A model generated the notes under the pieces. It saw only the letters and a list, made by a program, of their open reading frames with translations, was not told the origin of the DNA and did no database searches. The translations under genes were made by a program, and so were the position numbers. Below, piece by piece: positions 10,959-36,533 of a DNA stretch of 38,383 bases (positions within the stretch are counted from its first letter, which is position 1; the number at the start of each line of letters is the position of its first letter). Source of the stretch: a virus. The stretch spans positions 1 to 38,383 of IMG/VR virus record IMGVR_UViG_3300030106_007858, one strand, 5' to 3'.

Positions 10959-10963
10959 GGCGA

Positions 10964-11431
10964 TTATTCGTCAATTGGGGTAAGGACAAATGTGAAAAAT
11001 TGATTATCAACCAAGCCTGACGGTTTGCCATCGCTGGAAATTGCAAAGTAGCGCCCATCGAAATACACCCTACGCGCCTCTCGAATGTAATTGTAGCCAG
11101 CCTCCTTGACGACGATCTCTACAGAACCATCTGGTAAAACCACTTTATTTTGGCTTCCAGCCTGCTCAGCGGTGTCCGCCGACATAAACTCCTTGTCCAT
11201 GTCCTTGTAATAGATTCTTGCGGAAAACGTGTCAGAAATAGTCGTGTATTCAACGGAGCTATTTGAACCCGTGTTGGTTCTACCGTATAGAGAGTTCCAT
11301 TTTGGGGTCGAGGCAATAAGAGTTTTCTTTGCATTCTTGTATACAGTTATTGTCTGGGCAAAGGTTGTATGCAAGGTATCTGCTAAACTTTTAATTTTAT
11401 TAATTTGATCTGCTGATAAAAATCCCGCCAT
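10964..11431 (-). CDS. Putative head closure (stopper) protein
   Basis: First gene of the minus-strand connector operon. The 155-residue product has a helical N-terminus (LSADQINKIKSLADTLHTTFAQTITVYKNAKK) and then a strand-rich domain that includes the short runs SARIYYKDMD and REARRVYFDGRYFAI. This resembles beta-barrel head-closure proteins of the SPP1 gp16 or lambda gpFII kind in size and layout. A TATAAATA box lies about 18 bases upstream on the minus strand. The assignment comes from the order: closure, neck, terminator, tube. Confidence 0.5.
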   Translation of the reverse strand: MAGFLSADQINKIKSLADTLHTTFAQTITVYKNAKKTLIASTPKWNSLYGRTNTGSNSSVEYTTISDTFSARIYYKDMDKEFMSADTAEQAGSQNKVVLPDGSVEIVVKEAGYNYIREARRVYFDGRYFAISSDGKPSGLVDNQFFTFVLTPIDE

Positions 11432-13554: not shown

Positions 13555-16500
13555 ATGCCCATTCAGATACCTACAGTTCAAACAGGATTAGAAGCAAGTA
13601 TTCAGGCTGCTGCTCAGAAAGCGGGTAGGAATCTTAAGATAAATCTTGGGGCCAACTCCAGAAGTATTGACGCTCTGGCACAGCCCTTAGGACGCATAAC
13701 AGGTAAGGCTGACGAGTTTACTAAGTCCATGGAGGCGGCAAACGCCCGTGTGTTGGCTTTTGGTGCTTCTGTCGGTGTTCTCTCTGCGATCACAAGAGGT
13801 TTCAGGGAATTGGTTAAGACCACAGTGGAGGTCGAGAAAAGTCTGGCCAACATTAATTCAATTTTAAATGTTAGTGCTGCCAATTTAGATAAGTTCAAAA
13901 AACAAATATTTGATGTCGCCAGAAATACAGAGCAAACATTTGAAACTGTTGCTCAAGCGGCTTTGGAATTAAGTCGTCAGGGCCTTAAGGCTGAAGAGGT
14001 AACGAAGCGATTAAATGATTCCATGATCCTCGCTCGACTCTCGGGTCTTGGTGCAGCAGAGGCCGTTTCGGGGCTAACAGCAGCTATTAACTCTTTTAAT
14101 TCACAAGGATTAACTAGCGCCGAGGTATTGAATAAAATTGCCGCAGCGGCTGTAAAGGCTGCTGTATCTGAGAAAGACTTGATTGAGGGTATTAAGCGTT
14201 CTGGTGCGGTTGCTATTGAGGCGGGCGTGACGTTTGACGAATTGGTCGGTGTTATATCCGCACTTCAACAACAGACTGCGCGTGGTGGTTCGGTTATCGG
14301 TAACTCTCTTAAAACTATTTTTACTCGTCTTCAGAGTTTGGAAAAACTGAAGACTATGCAGGATTTGGGCGTGGAAATTACTAATGCCGCAGGGGAGGTT
14401 CTTCCCGCCACGAAACTTATTCAAAATTTAGGGCAGGCTATTCAAAGTTTACCCGATACCCGCAAACTTCAGATTGCGGAAAATTTGGTAGGCAAATTCC
14501 AGATTGCGCCATTCTTGGCTATTTTGAGGGATTACAATTCTGAAACTCAAATCGCGATAGACATCACCCGAGTTGCGGCTAATGCCACAACAGAAGCTTA
14601 TGGGCGTAATGTGACATTGAACAAAACCTTGTCTGCTGCAATTAATGAGGCTACGACAAATTTAAAGGAGTTAGCGAACACTCTTGGTGAAATTGGGGTG
14701 ACCGAAAGCTTACAAAATGTTCTTGGATTTTTCAACAGCTTGGTAAGTAAAATTCAGGAAGTTTTAGAGGGTGAGGGTATAGGTAGTGAGTTTGCTAGAG
14801 GACTCGTAAAAGGTATCGGCAACGTTATTAGTGGCCCAGGTTTAGCGATATTTGGTGCGATTATAGCCAAACTAACAATTGACCTAACGAGGTTTGGCGC
14901 TGCATCCCTACAGACATTTTTTGGTTTAAATAAAACCGCCAAAGATATTGCTGCTACTCAGGGATCAATTGCCTCAACGCTTTTAAAGAATTCTGATATT
15001 CAGAAACAGATTCTGGCAATAGAAAACTCCACATTAAGTGTGGAGCAAAAAAGGGCGGCGCAAACACAATTTTTTACTCAAGCGCTAAATTCTCAATTGG
15101 CGATAATGAAGCAGATGCAGGGTATCGCGGCGAGTATTGCTCCATCTGTGGTTGCGCGAACGGGCGGACGATCTGGTGGTAGAGGAAGAGCCGCTGGTGG
15201 ATTTATTCCAAACTTTGATGCCGTAAGGGGCTATGGGTCAGAGCGGCAGGACATCATGCGTGGTGTAGGTGGTGCGCCATCATCTGCAAGACCTGTTACC
15301 ATTCCGAATTTTAATTTTGGTAGCGGTCAGCGGGGAACCATGATCGCTAATAGTAGTGAGTTCATTGTTCCTAATTATGCTGGTGGAGGTTCTGCTATTT
15401 ACAATCAGGATATGGTGCGAAGCATGGGGATGCCCGCTGGCGCCAGAAGTTTGGCGGCGGGAGGCTATATACCGAATTTTGCGCGTGGTATTCCTCAGGC
15501 GAGAGTGGGTCGCCCCTCGGGGACTGTCTCGGATTACATAAGCGCAAGAGGTAGTGAAGTACACACGCGAGAATCGTTGTTGAAGGCGGGCTTTTCAAAG
15601 CAGCAAGTCGGGCAAGCTGGTTTTCCCGCTGCCCCCGCTGCGGCAGCAGCTTCTTCCAAGACTGCAAAAACTGCCCAGACGGCAGGTCCAAGGATTATTG
15701 ATATTCAAACCGCTTTAGGCAGAAGAAATAAATTACCAACCCTTTTAACACCAGCAGGTTCAGGTATGAAAGGTTTCCTCACAACCGAAACTGATATAAG
15801 TGATTTATTTGCAAAGCCAAAAAACACAGTTAGGGGAATTTTTGCTTGGGAAAAGAGAACGCTGGCTAAAGGTTCACCCTTGAGGGATAGATATCAGAAA
15901 AGATTTAACAAGGAGCGCGTTAAAAAATGGGCCGAGAAGCAGGTAATACCGATGGCCAGACAGATAGCGGAGACGGTGGGGGCGCAACCCGTCGATCCCA
16001 CGACGATAGAGAAGGTTAAAGAGACAAAGGGGTATATAGGTGGAATTCATGCCGCTTTCGGCGCAATTTTTGATGCGGCTGTAGCTACTGGATTGAAGCT
16101 CGAAGCTCAAGATCCAGACAGGGGAGATTTCGATTACAGGGGATCAATAGAAAAAGCGCCAGACCACAAGAAGTTCATGACAAAGCTTTTTGGCAGGGGA
16201 TTTGCGGGGCAGGGCTTTTTTAACGGCTTGGCCGATTTAAAGTTTTCTGGTGGTGCTAGTGCAAAAACAAGCATGGCGGGTAAGACTAAAAAGGAAATTA
16301 GAACGGGTGGCGCTCTGGCGGCATTGAGGCAGAAAATATTTCCCACCAAGAGTGGGGGCGGCAAATCCGCCGCTGGTTACATTCCCAATTTCGATGCGAC
16401 AAGAGGTTACGGCGCTTTGGACGATGCGGTAATGAGAGAACAGGCCGCTGGTTTACCACTGAATCAAATAAGAATAAATCAAGACGCAAGATTGCGAAAT

Positions 16501-19500
16501 GCTGGCAATCCGATGGGTCTTGCTGTTACCAATGTGCGCGATGAGCCTACGGGTTCAATTGCGGCGGCTAGGGGATATGTCCCCAGTTATGCTAAGTCCC
16601 CTGCTGGTGGCGCGGACGCGCTGAATAAGGGTTTTGACAACACTTTAAATAAGTTGTTTATGTTCCAAATAGCCATGGGAGTGCTTACGGGCTTTACAAG
16701 CGAACTCTCCGACCAGAACAAGACTGTAGCGAACAGCATGAAGGCATTGAATCTTGCCATAACGACGCTGATGATATCCAGTATGACTAAGGGTGGTATT
16801 GGGGGTTTAGGTTCATTTTTAATGGGAGGCGGTTCCACGGCGAGAAACTTGATGAGGAGCGGCAGGACACAGATGGCTGGTCCTAATATGTTTCATGGGC
16901 TAGACATTAGAAAGGCTCAAGGGTTACCGCCCGCTCAGGGTCTGGGAGCTAGGGCCGTGGGCGTTGGGAAATTTGGTGCTGGAGCGGCGCTTGCGGCTGT
17001 TGGTCCTGCTATCTTGGCGGTTGCTGCTGGTCAAATTTTCAGGATGTTTCAACAGCCATCGGTAGAGGCTGGTAAAGCTTTGACTGCGTTATCGGTCACG
17101 GCGGGTGAGCTTGGTAGCACCTTGGATACTCTAGAGCAGCAATTAACGAGTAGCCGCGCAGGTGGGGTAAGCGGGGGCATGGGTTCCTCAGTTGGTGATT
17201 TCATAGCTAATGCTGGAACATCTTTGTTTCAGACGGTTATCGGGTCGGGTGTGGGCAGGATGGCACAGGACCTTATGCGTGACCCCAGAGTGCGTGAAGC
17301 GGCGCAGGATAGAGGTTTTGTTACGCGAACCGCTGCGGAGCTTGCTGACCCACGGATACAGACACAACTCACCCGAGAGGCAGACGGAAAGCTTAGGCAA
17401 ACCACACTTAAGGGTCTCACTTCGGAGCAGTTTGCACAAGCCGAGACGGCATTCAAACAATCATTTTTAGCTGCGAATCCTAGATTGCGGGCATTGAATC
17501 TAGAAGAAGGAGAATCCCTCGCTGACACACCACCAGAGCTAAGGACTGGCCCCGTTATAGCCGATCCCGAAGCTAGAGTGGCAGCGGCAGAGAGGGAATT
17601 TGAGGATATGTTCATGACGGACGACCTCTTTACTGATCAAGATGTCCTCCTGCTTAAGACGATGATTAGCGGATTCAAGGAATTAGCTGAGACGAGAAAG
17701 GGCATCAACACTGTAAAGCAGGAGGGAAATCTAATCGACAAGATTACAATGCAAATGTCAAAAGACAGATTGCAAATAGCAGTTGATATAAAAAATGCTC
17801 AGGAAAATCAAGCAACCGCCATTCAAAAACGGATACAACAAGCTAAGATTTTAGGCAACGTCGGGAAGCGAGACTTATCTAGGCTGGAAGACGCCAACAA
17901 GGTAGAACAGAGCCGAATTAAATTTGTTCAACAGCAAAGGAAAGCTATTCTGGGAATAATTAAGTCGTCAGGTAACCTTATATCAGACAGAAAGCAAGAG
18001 GCGGCGGTCATGGAGGTTTTGAATGGCCTGACATTTGAGCAGTTAAACAAACAAGATGCTGTTACTGCCGCCATCAAGGAGGCTTTAAAGATGACCGATG
18101 CGGTTGAGATTGGCGAGGAGAAATTGACCGCGCTCGGAGAAACCAAGGGCAAGCAGCAAAGCCTTTTAATTCAGGGCGCACTAAAGCTACAACAAATAGA
18201 GGAGCAGGGCATCATAAATGACGGAAATCGCACCCGTGGGCTTCAAGACAGGGTGGACAAGGCGGCGCAGCTTGCAGATGAACTGGAACGGGCAGCGAGG
18301 GCAGACGCATTTGAGACTTCTTTTGCATTGTCGCAAGCGGCAGACGCCTCAGGCTTGGCTCGGGCAGCTATCAGCGCAAGAAGGACGGGTGGTAGTCGAA
18401 TAGCGGGACAGCAGAGAGACTTGGATTTGCTTCGGTTTGACAGAAATGACGCCGCCCTTCAAGCAGCGAACGCAAGGGAGGGTCTTAGGGGGGTGGCGCG
18501 AGGAGCGGGGACGACAGCTTTGGAGCCGTTTAGGAACGCAGTGCCTAAAGGACTAATTACCGCTTTTGAAGAACAGATAAAGTTGGCGAAAAGTAGCGAA
18601 GATTTAAATAAAGTGCTAAAGGGTTTAAAGGCTTCTATGGCAGTATTCTTCAAGTTCATCAAGATGGGTGAGAAGGAAATTGCAGCCTTCAATTTAATCA
18701 TAGATGAAACAACAAAGAACATAGACAACCAAAACAGAGACATAGAGCGGGAATTAAAGCTAAGATTGGAACAGTCCAATTTAAGTGAAAAAGAAATTAA
18801 ACAGCAGTTAGAGCTAATAGGCATATATGGGCGTCTTGGGAATGCCATTGAAAACATTCCTCAAAAAATCGAAGACTTACAATTTCGGGCGGCAACTGAC
18901 CCCAATCGCGGTAGTCGCCAACAAGCGAAAGATACGGCGGAAGCGATTCAGAATATATTGGCAAAAACCCGAGGGTTCTCGGGGCAAACGAATATCGGAA
19001 GCAAGGAGTTCAGTGAGAAGTTGGGTAATATGGACCCACTTGCGCGGTCGGAACTGTTACAAAGCATGGCTCGCGCTGAGCAGGGCATTGGCTTCAGTGT
19101 TGAGCAGATGTTAAAGCATAGACCAAACGAGGATCTTGAGCTTATCAACCACGAATTAAGAATGTCCATTGTGGGTCTAACGACAGAAATGGAAAGGGCT
19201 ACCAGTAATGCTGAGAAAGCCAGAATAGCTTTCGATCTGCAAACACAACAAAAGCAGCTTGATGCGGGGAAGGCAATTCTGGACCGAGGTGGCACTGCCG
19301 CAGAAGCAACGGCGGCGATGACTGCAATTCGGGGCCAAAGAGTAAACAGGGGGCTTGGACAAACCTTTGCTGAAAGCTCCATCCTTAATGCAACCGATGA
19401 AGAACGCGCCCAAAGGGTAAACGAACTCCTTAGGGATGGCTCGGTTCAATTTGCTAATAACATAGGAACAGCAATGCACAAAGCCATCAGAGATGGCGAA

Positions 19501-20880
19501 AGCTTTAGTGACGGGTTAAGAAGTGCTGGTTTGGCTTTCTTGGATTATATATCTGAAGCGATGATGCAGATGGCTGCTCAACAGGTTGTTGGCCAGTTTA
19601 CGAGTGGCATGTTTGGCAGTGGTGGCACTAGCCAAACTGGCGGCGCTAGTGCTGGTGGTGGTGGTGGATTTTTCAGTAAATTCAGTGGTGGTGGCGGTGG
19701 CGGTGGTAATGTCACTGGCGCCGCAGTAGTTGGGGGCAACTTCAGTTCGGGAGGTTTGATAATTGGAGGATCAGGAAGAAGAGATGATGTTCCTGCCATG
19801 TTAACGGGTGGCGAGTTTGTTATGAACAGGGCCGCAGTGGCCGACTATGGCATCAACTTTATGAAGCAGCTAAATGAACGTCGTGTTCAAGGCTTTGCTA
19901 ATGGGGGTGCCGTAGGGGGAAGAGATTTATTTGATCCAGCGTTTTCTGGCAGAGCCTTACGGGGCAAGGGTCAATTGATGGGCTTTGCGAGGCAGGGTGT
20001 TACATCTGGGGCTGGTGATTTTATTAGAGGTGGTTCTGGCGGTGGAGGTGCATTTGGCGCTGTTGCACTGCAACCTGGGAGTATTCGTGGGACACAATTC
20101 CAGAGGCGAACTGATCTCATGTCACAGAAGAGAACTGAAGCTAGAAGGAATGCCCTTAATTTATATTTTCAACAGTTAGAAAGCGAGGATCAGCGCCAAA
20201 AAGCGTGGGATGCTGAGCAGGAACGCCTCCTAAAAGAGAGGTTGTTCAGGGCTGAACAGGAAAGAAAGGCGAGGGCGGCAGAAAAAGCCAGAAGAGAGGC
20301 AGAAAAAAAAGCCAAGAAGGCTGCGATTTGGTCCACAGTTGGCATGGTTATCGGCGGTATGTTTGGCGGTCCCATAGGCGCGGCGGCTGGCTCAGCTATT
20401 GGTGGAGCCGTTGGAGGCAGCGCCACGGGAGGATATATTCGAGGTGGCAAATTTAGCTCAGAAATGATTGAGCCGTCAGGCCGAGGCCGATTTGGGGGTC
20501 GCGGTGGCCCAGTTGGTCAGAATGCAGGAGTGGACACAGTTCCTACTATGTTAACTGGTGGGGAGTTCGTAATGAATGCCGCAGCTACAAGACGCATAGG
20601 TAGGGGCAATCTTGCGGACCTAAACAGTGGCGTAGGTGGAGCGGGTGGTGGATCTAGTAGCGCTTTAATCGGAGCGATAGGTCAGCTTGTTGGAGCGCAG
20701 AGTCGGGGAGACTCAGGAAACAACATCAGCATTACCATTAATCAAGACGGCACACAGTCTACCAGCATGGGTGGCAACACTTCACAAAGCGCACAATCAC
20801 TTGCTTCAAGAATACGCGATGCTGTAACAGAAATTATTGCAGAAGAAAAACGACTAGGAGGAGTACTTAGAACAGCGTAA
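13555..20880 (+). CDS. Tape measure protein (TP901-type) with inserted domain and repeats
   Basis: The 2441-residue protein sets tail length and enters the cell envelope at ejection. Residues about 80-330 match the TP901/PhageMin_Tail core (ANINSILNVS, LARLSGLGAAEAVSGL, ARGGSVIGNSLKTIFTRL). Residues 549-1012 hold six G-Y/F-I-P-N-F-type motifs, and between the fourth and fifth lies a globular insert (about 715-930). It contains GDFDY (D858/D860) and ADLKF (D894, K896), spaced as in PD-(D/E)XK nucleases; this reading is tentative. Long coiled coils occupy about 1380-1900. LTGGEFVMN occurs at 2083 and 2333, and a glycine-zipper hydrophobic stretch (about 2256-2285) could span a membrane. At about 0.15 nm per residue the tail could exceed 300 nm. 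No lysozyme or peptidase motif was seen. AAAGG lies upstream of ATG. Confidence 0.93.
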   Translation: MPIQIPTVQTGLEASIQAAAQKAGRNLKINLGANSRSIDALAQPLGRITGKADEFTKSMEAANARVLAFGASVGVLSAITRGFRELVKTTVEVEKSLANINSILNVSAANLDKFKKQIFDVARNTEQTFETVAQAALELSRQGLKAEEVTKRLNDSMILARLSGLGAAEAVSGLTAAINSFNSQGLTSAEVLNKIAAAAVKAAVSEKDLIEGIKRSGAVAIEAGVTFDELVGVISALQQQTARGGSVIGNSLKTIFTRLQSLEKLKTMQDLGVEITNAAGEVLPATKLIQNLGQAIQSLPDTRKLQIAENLVGKFQIAPFLAILRDYNSETQIAIDITRVAANATTEAYGRNVTLNKTLSAAINEATTNLKELANTLGEIGVTESLQNVLGFFNSLVSKIQEVLEGEGIGSEFARGLVKGIGNVISGPGLAIFGAIIAKLTIDLTRFGAASLQTFFGLNKTAKDIAATQGSIASTLLKNSDIQKQILAIENSTLSVEQKRAAQTQFFTQALNSQLAIMKQMQGIAASIAPSVVARTGGRSGGRGRAAGGFIPNFDAVRGYGSERQDIMRGVGGAPSSARPVTIPNFNFGSGQRGTMIANSSEFIVPNYAGGGSAIYNQDMVRSMGMPAGARSLAAGGYIPNFARGIPQARVGRPSGTVSDYISARGSEVHTRESLLKAGFSKQQVGQAGFPAAPAAAAASSKTAKTAQTAGPRIIDIQTALGRRNKLPTLLTPAGSGMKGFLTTETDISDLFAKPKNTVRGIFAWEKRTLAKGSPLRDRYQKRFNKERVKKWAEKQVIPMARQIAETVGAQPVDPTTIEKVKETKGYIGGIHAAFGAIFDAAVATGLKLEAQDPDRGDFDYRGSIEKAPDHKKFMTKLFGRGFAGQGFFNGLADLKFSGGASAKTSMAGKTKKEIRTGGALAALRQKIFPTKSGGGKSAAGYIPNFDATRGYGALDDAVMREQAAGLPLNQIRINQDARLRNAGNPMGLAVTNVRDEPTGSIAAARGYVPSYAKSPAGGADALNKGFDNTLNKLFMFQIAMGVLTGFTSELSDQNKTVANSMKALNLAITTLMISSMTKGGIGGLGSFLMGGGSTARNLMRSGRTQMAGPNMFHGLDIRKAQGLPPAQGLGARAVGVGKFGAGAALAAVGPAILAVAAGQIFRMFQQPSVEAGKALTALSVTAGELGSTLDTLEQQLTSSRAGGVSGGMGSSVGDFIANAGTSLFQTVIGSGVGRMAQDLMRDPRVREAAQDRGFVTRTAAELADPRIQTQLTREADGKLRQTTLKGLTSEQFAQAETAFKQSFLAANPRLRALNLEEGESLADTPPELRTGPVIADPEARVAAAEREFEDMFMTDDLFTDQDVLLLKTMISGFKELAETRKGINTVKQEGNLIDKITMQMSKDRLQIAVDIKNAQENQATAIQKRIQQAKILGNVGKRDLSRLEDANKVEQSRIKFVQQQRKAILGIIKSSGNLISDRKQEAAVMEVLNGLTFEQLNKQDAVTAAIKEALKMTDAVEIGEEKLTALGETKGKQQSLLIQGALKLQQIEEQGIINDGNRTRGLQDRVDKAAQLADELERAARADAFETSFALSQAADASGLARAAISARRTGGSRIAGQQRDLDLLRFDRNDAALQAANAREGLRGVARGAGTTALEPFRNAVPKGLITAFEEQIKLAKSSEDLNKVLKGLKASMAVFFKFIKMGEKEIAAFNLIIDETTKNIDNQNRDIERELKLRLEQSNLSEKEIKQQLELIGIYGRLGNAIENIPQKIEDLQFRAATDPNRGSRQQAKDTAEAIQNILAKTRGFSGQTNIGSKEFSEKLGNMDPLARSELLQSMARAEQGIGFSVEQMLKHRPNEDLELINHELRMSIVGLTTEMERATSNAEKARIAFDLQTQQKQLDAGKAILDRGGTAAEATAAMTAIRGQRVNRGLGQTFAESSILNATDEERAQRVNELLRDGSVQFANNIGTAMHKAIRDGESFSDGLRSAGLAFLDYISEAMMQMAAQQVVGQFTSGMFGSGGTSQTGGASAGGGGGFFSKFSGGGGGGGNVTGAAVVGGNFSSGGLIIGGSGRRDDVPAMLTGGEFVMNRAAVADYGINFMKQLNERRVQGFANGGAVGGRDLFDPAFSGRALRGKGQLMGFARQGVTSGAGDFIRGGSGGGGAFGAVALQPGSIRGTQFQRRTDLMSQKRTEARRNALNLYFQQLESEDQRQKAWDAEQERLLKERLFRAEQERKARAAEKARREAEKKAKKAAIWSTVGMVIGGMFGGPIGAAAGSAIGGAVGGSATGGYIRGGKFSSEMIEPSGRGRFGGRGGPVGQNAGVDTVPTMLTGGEFVMNAAATRRIGRGNLADLNSGVGGAGGGSSSALIGAIGQLVGAQSRGDSGNNISITINQDGTQSTSMGGNTSQSAQSLASRIRDAVTEIIAEEKRLGGVLRTA
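15199..16590 (+). repeat. Six G-[YF]-[IV]-P-[NS]-[FY] motifs within the tape measure gene
   Basis: Motif copies fall at residues 549, 583 (IPNFNF), 604 (IVPNYA), 637, 941 and 1007. The first and fifth are followed by the same extension, D-A-[VT]-R-G-Y-G. Most are preceded by AAGG or AGG, giving short Gly-Pro linkers that flank the inserted domain. Confidence 0.75.
19801..20577 (+). repeat. Two LTGGEFVMN motifs near the tape measure C-terminus
   Basis: VPAMLTGGEFVMN (from residue 2080) and VPTMLTGGEFVMN (from residue 2330) stand 250 residues apart, each after a Gly/Arg-rich stretch. A degenerate third form, SSEFIVPN, lies near residue 600. The motif is familiar from C-terminal parts of other tape measure proteins. 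Confidence 0.75.
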
Positions 20881-21671
20881 TGTTTGGAACAAGATTAAAC
20901 TATGATTGTGATTTCTTTGTTTCTGGCCAGCGACTTTCTGGAATACAGAATCTGGATATAGCATATTCAAATTCTGCTGTCGTAACAAAGCCGTTGGGCT
21001 ACGTTGAGGGTACAACTACAATAGCTGGACCAACGCAACAATCAGTTTCGCTGAATAGATACTTCATCTACGATGATCCAATTTATAACTATACTGGAGA
21101 CACTAATATGTCAGGCAGTATTGAGTATGGCGGAATCTCCTACGGCTTTCAAAGCGGATACTTGACGAGCTATTCCGTAAATGCTGCGGTGGGAACGGTT
21201 CCTCAGGTAAATGCCAATATTGTTGTTTATGATGAAATGAGAAGTGGTTACAGCGCTTCGGGAAATGTTGCTCACCCCACCATCGATGTTCCGACCCAAG
21301 GATCAATGAGTATTACTTCTGATTGGACAAATTCGAACAGAGTGATAGGTATGGATTATTCCGTAAGCTCTAATCGCAAGCCTTACTACAGTGTGGGTTC
21401 GCAAGCTCCGATTGGTGTATCTTTTCTTCCGCCACTGGAAATAACTGCAAGTGTGCAATATGATGTTGATGAAGCCTTCATGGCAAGCGGTTACTCATTT
21501 TTGGGTGATGGTAAAGAGAATAAAACAGCCATTCTGCAAATTAATGGGAGAGATGGGACAAACTTGGCGACCCTTTCCGTACCTAATGCGTCATTGGTTG
21601 GTGAAACGTTGACGACCTCATCTGAAGGTACTTTAATATTAACACAAGAATATGTGGGGCATGGGGTATGA
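20880..21671 (+). CDS. Tail-tube-like distal tail protein
   Basis: A 263-residue beta-rich protein directly after the tape measure gene, the slot of the distal tail protein. It carries one copy of the tube-type signature (TSYSVNAAVGTVPQVNANIV, around residues 98-117) also found in the major tail tube protein and the 22623 protein, so it is a shorter tube paralogue probably forming the hub ring at the tail tip. The ATG overlaps the tape measure stop (TAATG) and its end overlaps the next gene by four bases. No enzyme motif is visible. Codon use resembles its neighbours. Confidence 0.6.
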   Translation: MFGTRLNYDCDFFVSGQRLSGIQNLDIAYSNSAVVTKPLGYVEGTTTIAGPTQQSVSLNRYFIYDDPIYNYTGDTNMSGSIEYGGISYGFQSGYLTSYSVNAAVGTVPQVNANIVVYDEMRSGYSASGNVAHPTIDVPTQGSMSITSDWTNSNRVIGMDYSVSSNRKPYYSVGSQAPIGVSFLPPLEITASVQYDVDEAFMASGYSFLGDGKENKTAILQINGRDGTNLATLSVPNASLVGETLTTSSEGTLILTQEYVGHGV

Positions 21672-22621
21672 GTGAAGATTTATTTTACAATCGGGATAGA
21701 AATATTCAGGGCGTTGTCGCCCCAACCCATCTTTCTGGCTTGGAGCTTACACCCTCCTACGGCTCGCAGGCTTCTTTTGAGGCAAAAAATCACAGCTATG
21801 AGACTGATGATTTTTATTTCAACATGGTTCCACTTTCGTTGAATAGTCTGAGTGCAACTTTTAGTGTGGCATATTCAGTTAGCGAAACAAACGCACAAAA
21901 ACTAGCCAATTTCTTTGAGAGTAAGTCGGGTTCAGTTCCGATGGAATTAAACGTTGATAACTCGGGAATATATCGCGGGGTTTCTGGTGTTTGCCCTTCG
22001 TATTCTGTAGATTTTGTCAATAATCAAAATATGAGCGTTCAGGCTGATTTTGTTTGCAACACTGCACCAACTTTAATGAACTGGTCAGGACAGACATTTA
22101 CTAACGCAACTGGCTCTGATTGGGAAGGCGGAAGAGCTTACCAAGAGTATGATATTGTTTATACAGGGGTGAGCAGTAATAAATTAAACAATTTTTATTA
22201 CTGTGCCACTGGGCATACATCGACTGTGGCAAATGGTCCCACGGGCGCTTCAACGGTGTGGTCGCAAGCGTTTTTCTTTGAGCCTGACATAAGCCAAAAC
22301 GCATCCGTTGATCTAAAAAGCGATCAGTTGGACTATAAAAACTCCTTTATTCAAAGATTCAATACAAACACAAATATTGCCACTTTCCCAATAGAGTATC
22401 AATTCACGAATATAAGCGACCATCAGTTAAAAGCGATGTTGCACTTTTTAGAAAACAAAGCTGGCTATCGTAGGTTTAGGCACCAGATACCAAGCGTTTA
22501 CAACAGGCCAAAGGTTTACTATTGCCCGCAGTGGACGCACACATGGAAATATTATAATTCAAATGACCTGAGCGTTTCTTTTGTGGAAGACCCCTTAGGT
22601 GTAATCCCAACAGGAACATAA
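21668..22621 (+). CDS. Minor tail protein, duplicated gpM-like domain with carbohydrate-binding-like insert
   Basis: A 317-residue protein with two similar halves. Each has a helix-rich segment followed by a strand pair (NAQKLANFFESKSG then SVPMELN; DHQLKAMLHFLENKAG then YRRFRHQIPS), the layout of phage minor tail proteins related to lambda gpM, which joins the tube to the tip. Between them, residues about 150-185 (WEGGRAYQEYDIVYTG then NNFYYCATGHTS) resemble a small ChtBD3/CBM5-12-type carbohydrate-binding module, with the typical Tyr-x-x-x-Asp-x-Val and Tyr-Tyr-x-x-x-x-His pattern. It starts in an ATGA overlap with the previous gene. The domain calls come from sequence pattern only. Confidence 0.55.
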   Translation: MSEDLFYNRDRNIQGVVAPTHLSGLELTPSYGSQASFEAKNHSYETDDFYFNMVPLSLNSLSATFSVAYSVSETNAQKLANFFESKSGSVPMELNVDNSGIYRGVSGVCPSYSVDFVNNQNMSVQADFVCNTAPTLMNWSGQTFTNATGSDWEGGRAYQEYDIVYTGVSSNKLNNFYYCATGHTSTVANGPTGASTVWSQAFFFEPDISQNASVDLKSDQLDYKNSFIQRFNTNTNIATFPIEYQFTNISDHQLKAMLHFLENKAGYRRFRHQIPSVYNRPKVYYCPQWTHTWKYYNSNDLSVSFVEDPLGVIPTGT

Positions 22622-22622
22622 A

Positions 22623-24587
22623 ATGGCCATCAACGCTTTTAGAAGTAATAATTCTTTTATCGCCTGCGAACAGCTTGCGTCCACAGATGCTTTTTACACT
22701 GGTGTGACGACAGGATCAATAATGTCAGTTGTTCAAGGCTCATCCTTTAGCGTTGGGCTTGATCATATTACTTCAAATCAATTAGGGTCTCGCTATTATT
22801 CTGTGAATTCGCTAAACAGGCAACCTGACATAGCTTTGTCTATTAGTTATATACCCAGCTACCCTTTCTTTAATGAGGGCTTGGTAAATTTAGCGGATGT
22901 GAATACTAGTGCCACTGGACAAATTGTTTCCATGGCGGCTCTTTCGGGATTCGAAAGCGCTTCTAGGAATTTTTATATTTTTACTAGACCCGAAGAGGGC
23001 TACAATGCTTTATCTGGATTTTCCGTTACTGATAACCTTAACTTTAGTGGCTATCAGTGCGCTTCAGTGGGCAATTGTTTTTTAACAAACTATTCCCTTT
23101 CATATTCTGTTGGACAGCTTCCAGTGGTGCAGACCCAGTTTATTGGCTCTAATATGCAGTATGAGAACATAACGGGAACAACGGTTGGTTCGCCAGCTAT
23201 TAATCTAGCAAGCGGTAATACAAATCAAGTGGGCGAACTGACCCTATCTGGTATTCAGGAATTTGCCTCTAGTCCACTAATTACTAATCCTACCAGAACT
23301 GGAAGTTCGGTAACCCTGCAAAACTTACAGGTGGGAGGGCAAGCCTTGGGTGAAGGGCATATTTTGCAATCCGTTCAGTTAGATCTTGATATACAACGCC
23401 ACGCAGCCTATGGGATAGGAAGCGATTATGTTTATGGAAGAAAAATGCTGCTCCCTGCCGTCGGCTCTCTCAGCGTTTCATCCTTGGTCTCAGGTTTTGA
23501 ATCGGGGTTTGTAAGCGGAGTTGTTAATTCTGAGTCTGGTTATAATTTAGATTTAACGCTAGGAGCAAGCGGTAAGTCTCTCACATATAAAATTCAAGAC
23601 GCAAAACTTCAGTCTTACGACTATAGTATGGACGTAAATGGTCTAATGCTCATGAATGCCTCGTTTGCGTTTGAAGTGTCGCCAAACCCAGGGGGCTTGC
23701 AGATATCAGGAAACTCCCAGCAGTCTTTGTCGGCCTATACAATGGAACAAATTAACCAGCATTTTGATGCGTCAATGGATATGGCCACAAATGGCTCAAT
23801 GCTAGAGGACTTCACTGATCCCAATGGAGACTTAGAGGGGGGTGGATGGAATGCCAGTCGCAATGACGATTTTTGGGGTAAGGATATTGATTTTACAGCA
23901 GTCTCCGTTTGGAATAACAGAGGGTATGGAGCTTCATCGGATTTTAGAATGAGGGGAGCAACCGCTGTTACTTCAAGACACATAGTGATGGCCAAGCACT
24001 TTGCATTAAGCGTCGATGACGGGATATCGTTTGTAAGAGCAGATGGAACTTGGGTTCATAGCAATGTGATACGAGTAGCTTCTGATGGGTCTACGGATAT
24101 TGCAGTTGCTCTACTGGACGCACCATTACCTTCGACCATAAAACCCGTGAAGGTTGTTCCTTCTGATTTTGAAAGTTATTTTGATAGAGATGCGGTTGGC
24201 AATATAGTTTCCAATGGCAGACCAATATGTGTGGGCTTCGATCATGAAAAAAAGGGCTTATTTTTCTCAGTGACCAAAGCGGGAGCGGGAGCCGCGAAGG
24301 TCATTGCTTATATTGATGGATCTCTAGTCCCCGCTCCATATGATGAGATAGCAGAGGATTTAGCATCGGGAGATTCAGGAAACCCTTTGTTTATCATTGT
24401 GGATGGAGAACCCGTTTTAATTACTTCTTGGTATACCACCTCTACATCCCCAGCATACAATTCATATATTTCTACCATTAATGGGCTTATTGCATCAGTT
24501 GATTCGGCGCAGGGAATCAGCACAGGATATACCCTAACAGAAAAGAGTTTAAAGCATCTTAATCTAAAGAGATATCCTCCTTTTTAA
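22623..24587 (+). CDS. Tail-tube-like protein fused to a trypsin-like serine protease
   Basis: Residues 1 to about 360 are homologous along their length to the major tail tube protein (shared segments CFLTNYSLSYSVGQLPVV and GSDYVYGRKMLLP). After a linker at about 365-425 comes a chymotrypsin-fold (S1-type) protease domain: H459 in SRHIVMAKHFA, aligned with the classic ...TAAHC motif, D492 in STDIAVALLD, and S585 in GDSGNPLF with the usual GDSG context. The D-S spacing of 93 equals that of trypsin. All three catalytic residues are intact, so activity is likely. The protease would sit on the tail tip or its hub. It is the last gene of the rightward tail operon and its stop overlaps the convergent FmdB-like gene by four bases. 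Substrate unknown: outer-membrane or S-layer protein, or virion self-processing. Confidence 0.82.
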   Translation: MAINAFRSNNSFIACEQLASTDAFYTGVTTGSIMSVVQGSSFSVGLDHITSNQLGSRYYSVNSLNRQPDIALSISYIPSYPFFNEGLVNLADVNTSATGQIVSMAALSGFESASRNFYIFTRPEEGYNALSGFSVTDNLNFSGYQCASVGNCFLTNYSLSYSVGQLPVVQTQFIGSNMQYENITGTTVGSPAINLASGNTNQVGELTLSGIQEFASSPLITNPTRTGSSVTLQNLQVGGQALGEGHILQSVQLDLDIQRHAAYGIGSDYVYGRKMLLPAVGSLSVSSLVSGFESGFVSGVVNSESGYNLDLTLGASGKSLTYKIQDAKLQSYDYSMDVNGLMLMNASFAFEVSPNPGGLQISGNSQQSLSAYTMEQINQHFDASMDMATNGSMLEDFTDPNGDLEGGGWNASRNDDFWGKDIDFTAVSVWNNRGYGASSDFRMRGATAVTSRHIVMAKHFALSVDDGISFVRADGTWVHSNVIRVASDGSTDIAVALLDAPLPSTIKPVKVVPSDFESYFDRDAVGNIVSNGRPICVGFDHEKKGLFFSVTKAGAGAAKVIAYIDGSLVPAPYDEIAEDLASGDSGNPLFIIVDGEPVLITSWYTTSTSPAYNSYISTINGLIASVDSAQGISTGYTLTEKSLKHLNLKRYPPF

Positions 24588-25094: not shown

Positions 25095-25415
25095 TCACTT
25101 GATCTCTATTTCTCTGCCCTCGGAAACCGTTCTCTTGGGCAGTGTCAATTTCAAAAGCCCATACTTTAAGTCGGCTGTGATGTGATCTACAGAAACAAGG
25201 TTATTTAAATAGAGTTTAAATTCTTTTTCTCGGTCCTTGTTTTTTGCCTTCACTGTTAGAATGTCATCAGCGACATTGATCGCCATATCTTTCTTGGAAA
25301 AACCTGGAAGCTCAATCTCTGAGGTGTAGACATCCCCCGATTCTTTAATCCGAGACCGCTTGTTTGGCGTAATCCTATGAATATCATTAAAGAGTGTGTT
25401 AATTAGTGTGTTCAT
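25095..25415 (-). CDS. hsp20: Small heat-shock protein (Hsp20/alpha-crystallin)
   Basis: A 106-residue chaperone of the alpha-crystallin type, which holds unfolding proteins in solution. The signature strands are clear: ELPGFSKKDMAINVADDILTVKA in two adjoining parts and the closing motif GLLKLTLPK (the G-x-L-x-L-x-x-P-K pattern). The N-terminal arm (about 25 residues) is short and the C-terminal extension ends in REIEIK, which contains the I-x-I oligomerisation motif. Hsp20 genes are recurrent in aquatic phages. It has its own promoter within the end of the upstream glycosyltransferase gene, with TATAAT five bases before ATG, so a leaderless message is predicted. A structured RNA and a terminator follow. 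Confidence 0.9.
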   Translation of the reverse strand: MNTLINTLFNDIHRITPNKRSRIKESGDVYTSEIELPGFSKKDMAINVADDILTVKAKNKDREKEFKLYLNNLVSVDHITADLKYGLLKLTLPKRTVSEGREIEIK

Positions 25416-30793: not shown

Positions 30794-31648
30794 ATGAGGG
30801 TTTTATTTGTATCTGACTTTACTCTAGACCAAACATTGGGGGGCGCACAGGTTAGCAATGACCTTATAATTAAAAAAGGGCGCGATCTAGGCTATGAAAT
30901 AGTAGAGCATGACTACACTTCGTCTATTGTGGATTTCCTCTCCTCATATGATTTACTAGTTAGTTCGAATTTAGAGGTAATAAGCGGGGGGTCTCGCAAT
31001 AAACTGGACTTTATTATTAATCATCCAAAGCACATCAGGCTGGAGCATGACTCATGTTTATACTTAGATAATTCTTTGCGGCAAGAACTTTTTGAATCAT
31101 CTAAACTTAACTTTTTTCTTTCTGATTTTCATATTTCATTTTTTAGGGAGCTTTACGGAGATTATTTCCAAAATGTGCAAATCAACTATGACCCAATAGA
31201 CGTAGAACTTTTCTCGGGAGAAGAGAAAGAAAAGGACTATGACATTGTGTATTGTGGTTACCTTCACCACCTTAAGGGTGTCGGCAATCTTATAGAATAC
31301 GCTATTGAGAACAAGCACAGAACTATCGATGTTTTTGGCTGGTCTGACCCCACAACACCGCCGACGCTTTTCGATAATATTGCCAATATTAATTATCGAG
31401 GCCCTAAAGAATATAGTGAAATGCCTAACATTTTTAAAAAAGCCAAGGCAATTTACCATCACCCAATAGTTAATGAACCATTCTGCCGAATGGTTGCCGA
31501 GGCGCTACTCTGCGGAGTTAAGGAAGTTATTGGCGCGAAGGAAAAAATAGGATCATATTTAGAGTTTGATAGGGTAGGTGCAGAAGAGTTCGCTAAAAGA
31601 TGTTCCACCGCAACAGAAAATTTTTGGAATAAAATAGAAAAATTATGA
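30794..31648 (+). CDS. Glycosyltransferase, GT-B fold (GT4-like)
   Basis: First gene of the sugar operon. The 284-residue protein starts with a Rossmann strand (MRVLFVSDFTLDQTLGGAQ, with a Gly-Gly acceptor loop) and has the donor-domain start YDIVYCGYLHHLKGVGNLI. The EX7E motif of retaining GT4 enzymes is complete: E228 and E236 in NEPFCRMVAE. It is shorter than the usual 350-400 residues, mainly because the N-terminal domain is trimmed. It should transfer a sugar from a nucleotide donor; acceptor unknown. Its ATGA end overlaps the next gene by four bases. The dedicated promoter upstream suggests the cassette is switched on as one unit. Confidence 0.82.
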   Translation: MRVLFVSDFTLDQTLGGAQVSNDLIIKKGRDLGYEIVEHDYTSSIVDFLSSYDLLVSSNLEVISGGSRNKLDFIINHPKHIRLEHDSCLYLDNSLRQELFESSKLNFFLSDFHISFFRELYGDYFQNVQINYDPIDVELFSGEEKEKDYDIVYCGYLHHLKGVGNLIEYAIENKHRTIDVFGWSDPTTPPTLFDNIANINYRGPKEYSEMPNIFKKAKAIYHHPIVNEPFCRMVAEALLCGVKEVIGAKEKIGSYLEFDRVGAEEFAKRCSTATENFWNKIEKL

Positions 31649-32382
31649 GTAAAAAAGTATCAGTTGTTTTAAACACATACAGGAGACCGCAGACACTCAA
31701 GAAGCAATATGAAGCGGTAACGACACAAAGCGTTATTCCTACAGAAGTACTTCTGTGGAAGAATCATCCAGAGGATGAAACAGAGTTTAATTTTGAGGGG
31801 ATAGATGGCGTTGCTATTGCTCAAAACAATGCGAACTATGGCGTGTGGGCTAGGTTTGCTTTCGCCCTAAACACCTGTTCAGACTACATCTGTGTATTTG
31901 ATGATGACACAATACCTGGGAAAAACTGGTTTAAGAACTGCATCGACTGCATAGAAAATGAAAACAATGGCCTCTATGGAACAAATGGCGTATCATTCAA
32001 TGATTTAGATTATGATTCTTATGAGCAGCACGGCTGGGCTAAACCAAACGAAAAGACAGAGCAAGTAGATATCGTTGGTCACTCTTGGTTTTTTCACAGA
32101 GATCTTCTATCGGCGTTTTGGAGAGAAACCGTTCCCCCAATTTCGCACTTGTGCGGAGAAGACATGCACTTTTCTTATTCGATCCAGAAATATATGGATC
32201 TAAATACTTATGTTCCACCACACCCCAAGGATGATCAGTCACTCTGGGGAAGCCATCCTAAGTTAGCGTATGAATTCGGCGTCGATAAAAATGCAATTTC
32301 TGTAAACTGTCACCAAGCAGGTGTCTTTGGTCACGTTTTACGCTACTATCATCACAAGGGATTTAAATTAAAAAATATATGA
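31645..32382 (+). CDS. Glycosyltransferase, GT-A fold (GT2-like)
   Basis: A 245-residue enzyme with the start of a GT2 domain (VSVVLNTYRRPQTL) and an acidic metal-binding DxD-type motif at residues 86-88 (VFDDDTIPG), followed by a likely catalytic-base region (CGEDMHFS). It should use a UDP- or dTDP-sugar donor with a divalent metal. No membrane segment is present, so it acts in the cytoplasm. It overlaps its neighbours by four bases on each side (ATGA both times). The C-terminus is basic and His/Tyr-rich (HHKGFKLKNI). Donor and acceptor cannot be deduced. Confidence 0.82.
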   Translation: MSKKVSVVLNTYRRPQTLKKQYEAVTTQSVIPTEVLLWKNHPEDETEFNFEGIDGVAIAQNNANYGVWARFAFALNTCSDYICVFDDDTIPGKNWFKNCIDCIENENNGLYGTNGVSFNDLDYDSYEQHGWAKPNEKTEQVDIVGHSWFFHRDLLSAFWRETVPPISHLCGEDMHFSYSIQKYMDLNTYVPPHPKDDQSLWGSHPKLAYEFGVDKNAISVNCHQAGVFGHVLRYYHHKGFKLKNI

Positions 32383-33377
32383 AAAAAACCCTAGTAGTTT
32401 ATGGAACGCGCCCTGAGTACCTAAAGGTAAAAACGTTAATTGGCTTAAGTGACTCAATCGATAGCCTTTTTGTCAAACAGCATACCGACATTATCGACTT
32501 TGGAGTCTTTGACCACTCTATTCAGGTAGAGGACAGTTGCCGCAACCGTTTAAATTCAATATTTCAACAGGTTTTCCTTAAAGCAGAGGGCATCATCAGT
32601 AAATACGATAACGTTGTTGTGCAGGGGGATACCGCAACCGTTGCTGCGATAAGCCTTGTGGCTTATCATTTAAAGAAAAAAATATTTTATATTGAGGCGG
32701 GATTGAGAAGTTTTGATTGGGAAAATCCATTTCCCGAGGAGGGTTACAGGCAAATGGTTTCCCGTATAGCAACAGTAAACCTTTGCCCCACAGAGCTATC
32801 AGCACAAAATCTTAGAAATGAGGGTGTTTTGGGAGCGGTTCATATCGTAGGCAACACCATCCTAGACACTTTGAGCGAGTATAAATGCAATACAGGATAT
32901 AGCAACAAGGTTTTAATTACTCTGCATCGGAACGAAAATTTAAAAATTTTGCCACAGTGGTTTGCTGCACTTAACAAGATTGCTTCATCTCACCCCTCGC
33001 TTGAATTTCTATACCCTGTTCACCCCAATCCCATTATCGTCAAGGAGGCCCAAAAATTAGATAAAATCACTCTACTTGAGCCACTAGAGCATGATGCATT
33101 TTTAAAAATACTCAAAGATTGTTGTTTTGTGATAAGTGATTCTGGAGGTATTCAAGAAGAAGGGTCATTTTTAAACAAAAGGGTAATAGTTTGCCGAAAA
33201 ACTACCGAGCGCCCTGAAGCTATAGAAAGCGGCCACTTAATCTTGTGTGGCGCCCCGTCCGATTTGGAAAAAACAGTGGAAATGGTGGTCGATAACTTTA
33301 CTATCAATGCCCGCTGCCCCTATGGGGACGGCAAATCTTCAAAAAAAATAAACAAGATTATTTCGCAGTATGAATAA
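32379..33377 (+). CDS. wecB: UDP-N-acetylglucosamine 2-epimerase
   Basis: A 332-residue GT-B-fold epimerase that converts UDP-GlcNAc to UDP-ManNAc. Family motifs are present: GTRPE at residues 9-13, a VQGDT loop, GLRSFDWENPFPEE, a HRNEN segment, SDSGGIQEE and TTERPE. Bacterial WecB is usually near 375 residues, so this copy is slightly shortened. ManNAc is a building block of several surface polysaccharides. It overlaps the next gene by eight bases. Within this operon it provides an activated amino sugar for the flanking transferases. Non-hydrolysing WecB is preferred over the hydrolysing NeuC type, since no clear NeuC partner is seen; not certain. Confidence 0.88.
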   Translation: MKKTLVVYGTRPEYLKVKTLIGLSDSIDSLFVKQHTDIIDFGVFDHSIQVEDSCRNRLNSIFQQVFLKAEGIISKYDNVVVQGDTATVAAISLVAYHLKKKIFYIEAGLRSFDWENPFPEEGYRQMVSRIATVNLCPTELSAQNLRNEGVLGAVHIVGNTILDTLSEYKCNTGYSNKVLITLHRNENLKILPQWFAALNKIASSHPSLEFLYPVHPNPIIVKEAQKLDKITLLEPLEHDAFLKILKDCCFVISDSGGIQEEGSFLNKRVIVCRKTTERPEAIESGHLILCGAPSDLEKTVEMVVDNFTINARCPYGDGKSSKKINKIISQYE

Positions 33378-34341
33378 AAATACAATAATTATTGTCGCTT
33401 ACAACAAGCCAGACTTATTGTATCTTTACTTGGAGCAGTTGTATTCAGAACCGACGATTGCTGATTACCAAATACAAATCAACACTGAAAAAGGCTACGA
33501 TCCCGAGCAGGATTATGTCATATCTCTATATAAAGAGAAAAACCCCAATGTTGAAATTAAGAGGTTTATTAAGCCAAACCACCCGTCCTGTCCTCTAGCG
33601 GGATACTATAATATTTTATCCTCTTACCTGTATGCGGCAGATCAAGAAGATTGTGGGGATTTTGTCATTGTTGGCGAAGAGGATATTTTGCCTACAAAAG
33701 ATTACATAAGGTATAATAAATATATCTATGACAACTATCTTAAAAAATACCCAAGAATAATGGGCGCGGCCCACAAAAGGCGCCCAGAGGCAGAGTTAGA
33801 CGGAAATCCAGAGGTGTTAATGGGTGACCATCAATGCACTTCATTGTCTGTAATATCCACAGAAACCATTAATAAATACTTGAGGCCGACCTTAGAGAAT
33901 GAAAATCTTTATCATAACCCTTTCTTCTTCTATAACTTACATTTTGGCGCATCTAGAATAGCCCCAAGTGATCACACGCACCACGACGGCCTGATAGAGA
34001 GAATAATGGACAAGCATAAACTATTTGTTTTAAAACCTGACCAAGCTCGATCTATGCATGTGGGTTTATCGGGCGTGTTTTGCAAGGGCGATGCCCCCGA
34101 AGGAACTCTAGATGAAAGGTTGGCCCAGTGGCGAGAATTAATTAAGGATGGAGATCGCCTTAGGTCTCTTTCAAACCTTCCCGAGGATCTGGTTGTTACC
34201 GATCCTGAAGGTCCAGAGTGGAACGAATTAAAACTTGACCTAGATAGAAATCTATGTCAAGCTAGTAGTTGGTGGTATGACAAGAACAACGAATTTAAAA
34301 AATACATAGAAGATGAAAAAAGTAATATTAACGGGAGCTAA
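33370..34341 (+). CDS. Glycosyltransferase-like protein, GT-A fold
   Basis: A 323-residue protein with a GT-A-type start (TIIIVAYNKPDLLYLYLEQL) and an acidic motif VGEEDILPTKD in the place of the DxD signature. The remaining part, with DHQCTSLSVIS and HVGLSGVFCKGD, resembles the acceptor half of GT-A enzymes. The acidic motif is EED rather than DxD, so metal binding is likely but unproven. It overlaps the dehydratase gene by 29 bases, the longest overlap in the operon. Donor and acceptor are not known. Confidence 0.7.
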   Translation: MNKNTIIIVAYNKPDLLYLYLEQLYSEPTIADYQIQINTEKGYDPEQDYVISLYKEKNPNVEIKRFIKPNHPSCPLAGYYNILSSYLYAADQEDCGDFVIVGEEDILPTKDYIRYNKYIYDNYLKKYPRIMGAAHKRRPEAELDGNPEVLMGDHQCTSLSVISTETINKYLRPTLENENLYHNPFFFYNLHFGASRIAPSDHTHHDGLIERIMDKHKLFVLKPDQARSMHVGLSGVFCKGDAPEGTLDERLAQWRELIKDGDRLRSLSNLPEDLVVTDPEGPEWNELKLDLDRNLCQASSWWYDKNNEFKKYIEDEKSNINGS

Positions 34342-35323
34342 CGGGTTTGTTGGTCATCACATTCTAGAGCATTTCATAAAACATACTGATTGGGAGATTT
34401 ACTGCATAGATAAATTGACCTATGCAAGCTCTGGCCACGATAGGATTAGAGACATAAACGTCTTTGATGATAGTAGGGTTAAGATTTTCACTAGTGATTT
34501 AGCTTTAGATTTTCCAGAGGGCCTCGTCAAGGAATTAGGCGATATTAACTATATATTCCATGTTGCAGCAGAGTCCCATGTTGATAACTCTATAGATCAC
34601 CCAATTCCCTTTATACAAAACAACATTGACTCCACGCTATACTTATTAGAATATGCAAAAAAGCTGAAAAACTTAGAAAAGTTTATTTATTTTTCTACGG
34701 ATGAAGTATATGGATCTGCGCCAATTGGTAAAGCCTATAAAGAGGGGGATCGATTTAATTGTGGTAATCCATATTCTGCATCCAAAGCAGCCGCAGAATG
34801 CATTTGTCAAGCCTATAGCAATACTTATAGGATGCCGATAATTACCACAAACACCATGAATGTTATAGGCCAGCGGCAGCATCCTGAAAAATTTGTGCCG
34901 AAGGTCATAAAGAAAGTTTTAAACGATGAAGTTATAACAATACACAGCAATCAAGAAAAAACCAAGGCGGGTAGCCGTTTTTATATCCACGCTCGTAATA
35001 TCGCTGATGCACTTTTGCATATATTAGATAATACTGAGGAAATGCTAGATAACTACGATGCGTCACAGGGTAAATTTAATATCGTCGGAGAAAGGGAGAC
35101 TGATAACTTGGAATTGGCGCAGTTAATTGCCAATATATTAGGAAAAGAGCTTAAATATGAAATGGTGGATTTTCATAGTTCGCGCCCAGGTCACGATTTA
35201 AGATACGCGATGGATGGGCAAAAGATGAGGGACTTGGGTTGGAGTCATCCAATTTTATTTGAAGATTCCCTGAGAGACACGATAGAGTGGACTTTGGAGA
35301 ACCCACAGTGGCTTGAAATTTAA
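34313..35323 (+). CDS. rmlB: NDP-glucose 4,6-dehydratase (RmlB/RffG-like)
   Basis: A 336-residue short-chain dehydrogenase/reductase family enzyme that turns dTDP-glucose (or a related NDP-sugar) into the 4-keto-6-deoxy form. The NAD-binding loop is TGANGFVG (residues 7-14), IDKLTYAS follows at residues 32-39 as in RmlB, the catalytic dyad region is FSTDEVYG (T129, D130, E131) and the Y-x-x-x-K pair is Y154/K158. The TDE triad favours RmlB over other SDR epimerases. The product is the natural substrate of a DegT aminotransferase, also present in this operon. It starts 29 bases inside the previous gene, and its stop overlaps the next ATG (TAATG). Confidence 0.88.
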   Translation: MKKVILTGANGFVGHHILEHFIKHTDWEIYCIDKLTYASSGHDRIRDINVFDDSRVKIFTSDLALDFPEGLVKELGDINYIFHVAAESHVDNSIDHPIPFIQNNIDSTLYLLEYAKKLKNLEKFIYFSTDEVYGSAPIGKAYKEGDRFNCGNPYSASKAAAECICQAYSNTYRMPIITTNTMNVIGQRQHPEKFVPKVIKKVLNDEVITIHSNQEKTKAGSRFYIHARNIADALLHILDNTEEMLDNYDASQGKFNIVGERETDNLELAQLIANILGKELKYEMVDFHSSRPGHDLRYAMDGQKMRDLGWSHPILFEDSLRDTIEWTLENPQWLEI

Positions 35324-36123
35324 TGAAGGACTTCACAAAAGAATTTGACAAAATAAAAAATTTAATTTCGTCGGATACTCCATTTGCGTTTTCTCGCTTT
35401 TCAGACGGCGAGGTAACAGTTTTGCAAAATAACGTTGTAGTCTTATCAGATAATTATTTCATACAAGGAGACCTACACGGAGACGATACAAGGTTTCAAG
35501 GGCAATATTTACCCGAGGAACAAAAAGCCTTTTACCCAGAAAAACATGAATTTTTTCACAAAAGGCTTGTTGAAGCTTTTAAATTTAGAAAGAAAAATTA
35601 TTTTAAGGGAATTCCACCACAAAACGCATCGTATGGCGATGTGTCTTGGAAATTTTGTGTGAATTTATACGGGGAGGGAGATGATGAGCATCTTTCTTTT
35701 TGTAACGTGATGATAAATGGCAACTACCATCGTTTCGTTACAGAAATAATACCAGAATTCCAAAAAAAGAAAATAGTCTTGGTCTGCAATGAAAATGCAG
35801 ACTTAGGAGACTTACCCTTTGAGGTGGTTAAGGATTTTCGGTGTGGCACAAATTCAATGATTAATAATTATAACCTTATTGGAGAAATGTCTAAGTGGAT
35901 CGAAGATCACGATATAACTGGACACACCTTTCTTTTTTCGGCGGCAACACTAAGTAATTATTTGATCTACCAGTTATACAAAATAGCAGACACAAATCAA
36001 TATATTGACATCGGCTCATCTTTGGGCTACCACTTGAGGTTAAACGGCTGTTATCTGAGGGGGTATTTAAATCAATACTGGAATCACGGTCTTCTATCTA
36101 CAGAAATTGACGTATGGAACTAA
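35323..36123 (+). CDS. Glycosyltransferase of GT-D type (DUF1792-like)
   Basis: A 266-residue protein. The N-terminal motif FSRFSDGEV (D28-G29-E30) matches the R-[FY]-x-D-G-E signature of DUF1792/GT-D glycosyltransferases, in which a D-x-E motif binds the metal and nucleotide sugar. The later segment VLVCNENADLGDLPFEVV and the FLFSAATLSNYLIYQL helix fit the Rossmann core of that fold. A short ending, YIDIGSSLGYHLRL, resembles the family end. GT-D enzymes in bacteria act on glycoproteins such as serine-rich adhesins, so a protein acceptor is conceivable. It overlaps the next gene by ten bases. Confidence 0.72.
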   Translation: MKDFTKEFDKIKNLISSDTPFAFSRFSDGEVTVLQNNVVVLSDNYFIQGDLHGDDTRFQGQYLPEEQKAFYPEKHEFFHKRLVEAFKFRKKNYFKGIPPQNASYGDVSWKFCVNLYGEGDDEHLSFCNVMINGNYHRFVTEIIPEFQKKKIVLVCNENADLGDLPFEVVKDFRCGTNSMINNYNLIGEMSKWIEDHDITGHTFLFSAATLSNYLIYQLYKIADTNQYIDIGSSLGYHLRLNGCYLRGYLNQYWNHGLLSTEIDVWN

Positions 36124-36533
36124 CAATTACGCGCTGCACACCAAATGATTGGGATTTCATAAGAAATCTAAGAAACTCCTCATCTATTGGTTTTTTTTCC
36201 CAAGAAGAAATAACCACAAATGAGCATTCCTCTTTTATGGGTAAGTATGGGGAAAATTACTTTATAGCTCGAAATGACGCTGAAGAAAGAGTTGGGTTTA
36301 TTGGCGAGGTAGCAGGCGATATCAGATTTGCTGTGCCAGTTGACTTCAGGGGTAATAATATTGCCGTTTCCATGCTGGATTTTTTTGAGCAAGAGCTTTC
36401 GCACCAAACCTTGTCGGCAAAAGTAAAATCTACAAATTACGCCAGCATTAAAACTTTTCTCAAGGCTGGTTGGAAAGAGGCTTCAGTTGGTAAATGGTCC
36501 AACAATGAAAATTATATCGTATTTGAAAAATGA
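36114..36533 (+). CDS. GNAT-family N-acetyltransferase
   Basis: A 139-residue enzyme with the GNAT layout: N-terminal strand and helix (MELTITRCTPNDWDFIRNLRN), central strands (RVGFIGEVAGDIRFAVPVDF), an acetyl-CoA-binding loop with the reduced form FRGNNIAVSMLDF in place of the usual Q/R-x-x-G-x-G/A, and the closing ASIKTFLKAGWKEAS. It is like PseH, WecD and other sugar N-acetyltransferases that act after an aminotransferase. Beside a DegT gene and a 4,6-dehydratase it most likely acetylates a 4-amino sugar nucleotide. It overlaps the DegT gene by four bases. Confidence 0.78.
   Translation: MELTITRCTPNDWDFIRNLRNSSSIGFFSQEEITTNEHSSFMGKYGENYFIARNDAEERVGFIGEVAGDIRFAVPVDFRGNNIAVSMLDFFEQELSHQTLSAKVKSTNYASIKTFLKAGWKEASVGKWSNNENYIVFEK

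Follow-up and report, generated by a model that had tools for sequence, protein, structure and literature searches.

A Diverged Tail-Tube Paralogue Fused to a Predicted Chymotrypsin-Fold Protease in a Viral Genome

Results

Organization of the locus

The DNA analysed here, referred to as the window, comprises positions 1 to 38,383 of the IMG/VR virus record IMGVR_UViG_3300030106_007858. Positions 22623–24587 of its plus strand carry a gene for a protein of 654 aa, which reads from ATG to stop without interruption; on the opposite strand, the frame read over the same interval contains many stops. The encoded protein combines a duplicated tail-tube domain (residues 1 to ~362, positions 22623–23708) with a module predicted to be a divergent protease of the chymotrypsin fold (PA clan, S1-like; residues ~369–654, positions 23727–24584), the latter being recognised in alignments A3, A5 and A10, in Foldseek comparisons and by a profile matched against PDB sequences. 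The N-terminal segment of this module is conserved (QINQHF..SMDMATNGSML..FTDPNG..). Further on, H459 (codon 23997–23999) lies in the motif VMAKHF, D492 (24096–24098) in GSTDIAVALL and S585 in SGDSGNP, the last within the tetrad G583-D584-S585-G586 (codons 24369–24380). These three residues, their S1-type motifs and the intact GDSG are exactly where the first-pass annotation of the locus had placed them.

Upstream of the fusion gene, and on the same strand, are found in order a putative tape measure protein of 2441 aa (13555–20880), recognised by its length, its position and the long genes that it matches in sister phages; a tube-like protein of 263 aa (20880–21671), probably belonging to the tail tip, which matches the N-terminal half of a second fusion found in contig L089 (see below) and, weakly, the genome's own tube protein (E 0.002); and a minor tail protein of 317 aa (21668–22621) with a lambda gpM-like domain (PF05939 above the cut-off, E 5e-10; phrog_14, E 4.9e-6). 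The 3′ end of the fusion gene meets a convergent block of minus-strand genes. A capsid protease was ruled out, since the gene sits in the tail module. Elsewhere in the genome, a minus-strand gene at 25095–25415 reads by eye like a small heat-shock (Hsp20) protein. In addition, a long run of genes resembling those for glycosyltransferases, sugar-nucleotide enzymes and an aminotransferase extends over positions 30794–37902 and over about 38000–48000 of contig G000; judged by eye from the translations, this glycan-synthesis-like cluster is large for a phage.

Viral contigs were scanned with progressively larger alignments. The fusion, which the first-pass annotation had proposed to look for in viral metagenomes, was recovered in four further contigs (L001, L002, L006, and L017), where the full-length relatives are intact and show 53–87% identity, while a separate fusion occurs in L089. 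Two genes misread as one are ruled out by the five intact fusions, that of the window included, in separate contigs. The fusion gene is under purifying selection, as computed from substitution rates: in both halves of the window protein dN is lower than dS wherever dS is estimable, dN/dS being ~0.15 in the N-terminal and 0.39 in the C-terminal half against L001, and 0.23 in the C-terminal half against L002. When positions 22623–24587 are compared with positions 1421–3385 of L001, dS is 0.51 in the tube half and 0.12 in the protease half; this far lower value suggests that the protease module was recently exchanged between related phages by recombination.

The N-terminal half is a paralogue of the genome's own tube protein

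A protein of 409 aa, encoded on the minus strand at 8253–9482, is probably the major tail tube protein of this phage. In an all-against-all comparison of the window's proteins, residues 34–290 of the fusion match it with an E value of 4.5e-11. The match was also obtained by an independent look-up and, with relatives included, extends to the end of the tube domain at about residue 362, in agreement with the first-pass annotation, according to which the first 360 residues match this protein. The tube half of the fusion is duplicated, the profiles of residues 1–189 and 190–364 matching each other (P 6.4e-5, probability 64%). In the sister phages L007, L008, L009, and L011, the tube genes are 31–32% identical to 8253–9482, the presumed capsid protein is 52–53% identical and the presumed tape measure 35–37% identical to the window's counterparts; a sister-phage homologue of the tube protein matches the minor tail protein family phrog_290 (E 2.5e-4).

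As for the position of the tube gene, it lies together with three neighbouring tail genes (8253–11431) on the minus strand, inside a morphogenesis region that is otherwise read from the plus strand. The same four genes, in unchanged internal order, are on the plus strand in the sister phages L007–L011, and this block is therefore inverted in the window; no long inverted repeats flanking it were found.

The fusion and the genome's own tube protein have the same duplicated layout, and in phage T5 a duplicated tube protein forms all rings of the tube (PMC5717097). Both facts would suit a fusion that serves as a variant subunit of the whole tube, with the proteases lining the tail shaft and acting broadly on surface or matrix proteins. 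We consider such an arrangement improbable. A separate full-length tube gene is present at 8253–9482, whereas the fusion is strongly diverged from its product (~23% identity) and is encoded among the tip genes, after the tape measure.

Predicted structure of the fusion protein

The structure of the protein was modelled with AlphaFold from a 20-row alignment, without templates. A single-sequence prediction (pLDDT 30) was discarded. An alignment of 47 protease-bearing rows and tube paralogues put the tubes on the protease, and a smaller, checked alignment was used instead. The AlphaFold model has a mean pLDDT of 66. Most 10-residue blocks of the protease half lie at 80–97, and the tube half is moderately confident, with values of about 25–83 per block, mostly 30–80.

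Compared as a single chain with the PDB using Foldseek, the model retrieves two unrelated groups of structures. The first consists of tail tubes, namely a siphophage major tail protein (8xan, E 2.1e-8), the chain 7qg9_G (E 6.1e-8), which belongs to the core of the T5 tail tip and is not equated here with p140, and the T5 tail tube (9iny, E 1.7e-7). The second consists of chymotrypsin-type proteases (chymotrypsin, trypsin, and factor IXa), with E values from about 4e-8 upward and TM-scores, by target, of 0.5–0.6. Against a viral library, the matches comprise many tail proteins and a trypsin-like protein of an archaeal virus. The model thus agrees with the chymotrypsin-like fold that had been proposed for the C-terminus, and one chain with predicted tube-like and chymotrypsin-like halves is well supported.

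The C-terminal half retains the catalytic triad

Neither the window protein nor its nearest relatives gave a useful match in Pfam, PHROGs, NCBIfam, or the sequences of solved structures. The window protein does not reach the curated cut-off of Pfam Trypsin, which matches 6 of 41 family members (best E 8.4e-5), and on the basis of its sequence it falls outside any Pfam or PHROG family. A profile built from the 41 members aligns with chymotrypsin among the PDB sequences (E 0.016–0.019) in one collinear alignment, which puts H459, D492, and S585 on chymotrypsin H57, D102, and S195, respectively. Profile comparison, which the first-pass annotation had advised for both halves, was positive for the protease; the sequence profile of the N-terminal half matched no solved tube protein.

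Conservation of the triad is strict. H459 and D492 are found in all 93 aligned rows and S585 in all 95; G583 is present and the GDSG motif is kept in 91 of the 95. The triad is invariant in all 63 distinct sequences with readable sites, as are D584 and G586, and it is kept in sequences down to ~25% identity with the window protein. Outside the triad, H453 and D540 are likewise invariant across the family, bacterial relatives included. A chance occurrence of the three residues was ruled out by their invariance, the profile match and the fold, and the assignment of the C-terminal half to a divergent chymotrypsin-fold protease with an intact triad is well supported.

Residues 366–654 contain one cysteine, C536, and the disulfides of S1A proteases are consequently absent from the domain. 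Non-enzymatic C-terminal Ig domains are frequent on phage tails, and this half, too, could be a decoration that retains the protease fold while being catalytically dead or serving binding only, a possibility with which the missing disulfides would agree. It is made very improbable by the invariance of the triad down to ~25% identity and by the persistence of GDSG, neither of which would be expected in a domain used for binding only.

The term "trypsin-like," used in the first-pass annotation, is appropriate for the fold and the triad and does not extend to specificity. Indeed, the specificity position (189; six residues before the serine) is D579 in the window protein and N, S, G, D, L, T or other residues in the family, a variability that leaves trypsin-like specificity unsupported. 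Similarly, the trypsin-like spacing between the aspartate and the serine does not hold as a family feature: it is 93 residues here and ranges from 74 to 125.

The protease module is carried by several tail-type proteins

In one scan, 66 viral loci with the protease domain were found, several of them repeats of the same contigs, which rules out that the protease is peculiar to the window phage. In the sister phages, the domain is part of a 418–424-aa protein that has a different N-terminus and is encoded directly after a tube paralogue. In L089, a distant virus, the module is joined through a Pro-Glu linker to a homologue (E 2e-15) of the window's 263-aa tip protein. In the protease tree L089 is represented by L090, a near-identical shorter contig, whose branch falls in a clade supported at 99/92, separate from the window clade (100/99). 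Given this separation, the module was most likely joined to tail proteins of the tube fold on two or more occasions.

Other carriers include the N-terminus of a T4-type long tail fibre (L093) and proteins with Ig domains of the Big_2 type (L018 and L086). Several of the flanking genes at other loci match tail or fibre families, and some match nothing. Computationally, the protease domain is linked recurrently to proteins of tail type. Among annotated phage records the domain was found in one only, that of an uncultured podovirus (MW202510.1), where its gene is located in the virion module, next to those for a rhamnogalacturonan lyase and an FN3 protein. When the complete fusion protein, the capsid protein, and the gpM-like protein were used as queries, no annotated phage was matched.

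Not every member of the family is clearly a virion protein, since those of L053 and L062 have short N-termini and low-complexity tails without a recognisable tail domain. Long low-complexity repeats (ETSAETSAE, GIGSTSA, SPSATP) are seen in many of the viral proteins with the protease, among them those of L053, L062, L055, L091, and their relatives, and the L051/L052 proteins end in an extremely cysteine-rich tail. Finally, relatives from Verrucomicrobiota (L020–L031; 25–32% identity) carry the motifs RHVVMAKHY, DVMVGLL, and GDSGNPSF. They are free-standing, without a tail domain, and their N-termini, read from the sequence, show a signal and a lipobox-like motif.

The distribution of carriers bears on whether the protease acts on the host or on the virion itself. 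Viruses commonly mature their virions by proteolysis, and the enzyme could be an assembly protease whose target, in the maturation of the tail, is the tape measure, another tail protein or the fusion protein itself. The gene's place in the tail operon, not far from that of the tape measure, would agree with such a function, as would the fact that the sister phages keep this place though the carrier differs. On the other hand, unrelated viruses carry the module on the N-termini of T4-type fibres and on proteins with Ig domains, no one phage substrate conserved among them is apparent, and the bacterial relatives look like exported lipoproteins. We regard a role in assembly as unlikely.

Discussion

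The architecture described above has counterparts in well-studied tails. In phage T5, the tube protein pb6 has a duplicated tube domain in one chain, forms a trimeric pseudo-hexameric ring and bears an outward C-terminal Ig domain, and p140, a diverged tube paralogue, forms a ring at the tail tip (PMC10038345, PMC5717097). In lambda gpV and other tail tube proteins, a tube domain is followed by a C-terminal Ig domain (PMC8718954). The fusion protein resembles pb6 and p140 in its duplicated tube domain within one chain, in being a diverged tube paralogue, presumably also used at the tip, and in its structural matches to 9iny and 7qg9_G. Unlike pb6, which ends in an Ig domain, it has a predicted protease at its C-terminus, and the solved tube proteins have no detectable sequence match to it. 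With the gpV type it shares the succession of a tube domain and a C-terminal accessory domain; here, however, the accessory domain is a predicted enzyme, encoded by a second tube gene that has diverged from the first.

As far as the protease is concerned, the fold, the order of the triad, the GDSG motif and the collinear profile alignment are those of the chymotrypsin/trypsin family (MEROPS S1, clan PA), from which the window protein departs by its absence from any curated family, its one cysteine, the variable specificity position and the additional invariant H453 and D540. The lipoprotein-type proteases of Verrucomicrobiota possess the same domain but differ in their N-terminus and in standing alone.

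In the mechanism that we infer, the duplicated tube domain of the N-terminal half would assemble, as in T5, into a trimeric pseudo-hexameric ring; a single such ring would sit close to or at the tip of the tail, as p140 does. A tip ring is the most likely arrangement in view of the divergence from the main tube protein and of the gene order, the position after the tape measure pointing to the tail tip. An active chymotrypsin-fold protease would occupy the C-terminus, where T5 pb6 and lambda gpV have their outward Ig domain, and a trimeric ring built in this way would hold about three protease domains outside the tail near the tip. Their target would be a protein on or around the host surface, belonging to the S-layer, the outer membrane or a matrix, and the cut would be made at adsorption or on penetration. 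We give somewhat better than even chances to this reading, in which a p140-like ring near the tip displays the protease outward to cleave a surface protein as the phage adsorbs.

Enzymes that cut glycans are known on phage tails. By analogy, the protease may be the proteolytic counterpart of the tail-borne polysaccharide depolymerases, that is, a tail hydrolase clearing a surface barrier, although its fold is unrelated to theirs and its proposed substrate is protein, not glycan. A wider proposal, which we advance tentatively and which falls just short of being probable, is that this unclassified family of virion-borne chymotrypsin-fold proteases is, in uncultivated viruses, a portable module of the tail that has been added time and again to tube rings, to fibres, and to tail proteins with Ig domains, and that serves to cleave proteins of the host surface during entry.

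Both halves of the protein belong to known fold families. To our knowledge, an active protease of the chymotrypsin fold has not been described as part of a tail ring, and a limited search of the open-access literature found no description of such a protein, of this combination of halves or of a recurrent tail-linked protease family. If the enzyme is active, its presence would imply that certain phages have to cleave a protein barrier before they can enter their hosts; the module would then hint at receptors or layers made of protein on hosts that are uncultured, and it would provide serine proteases of a new, disulfide-free family. Because the module recurs on proteins of tail type, the question is directly testable with the purified domain.
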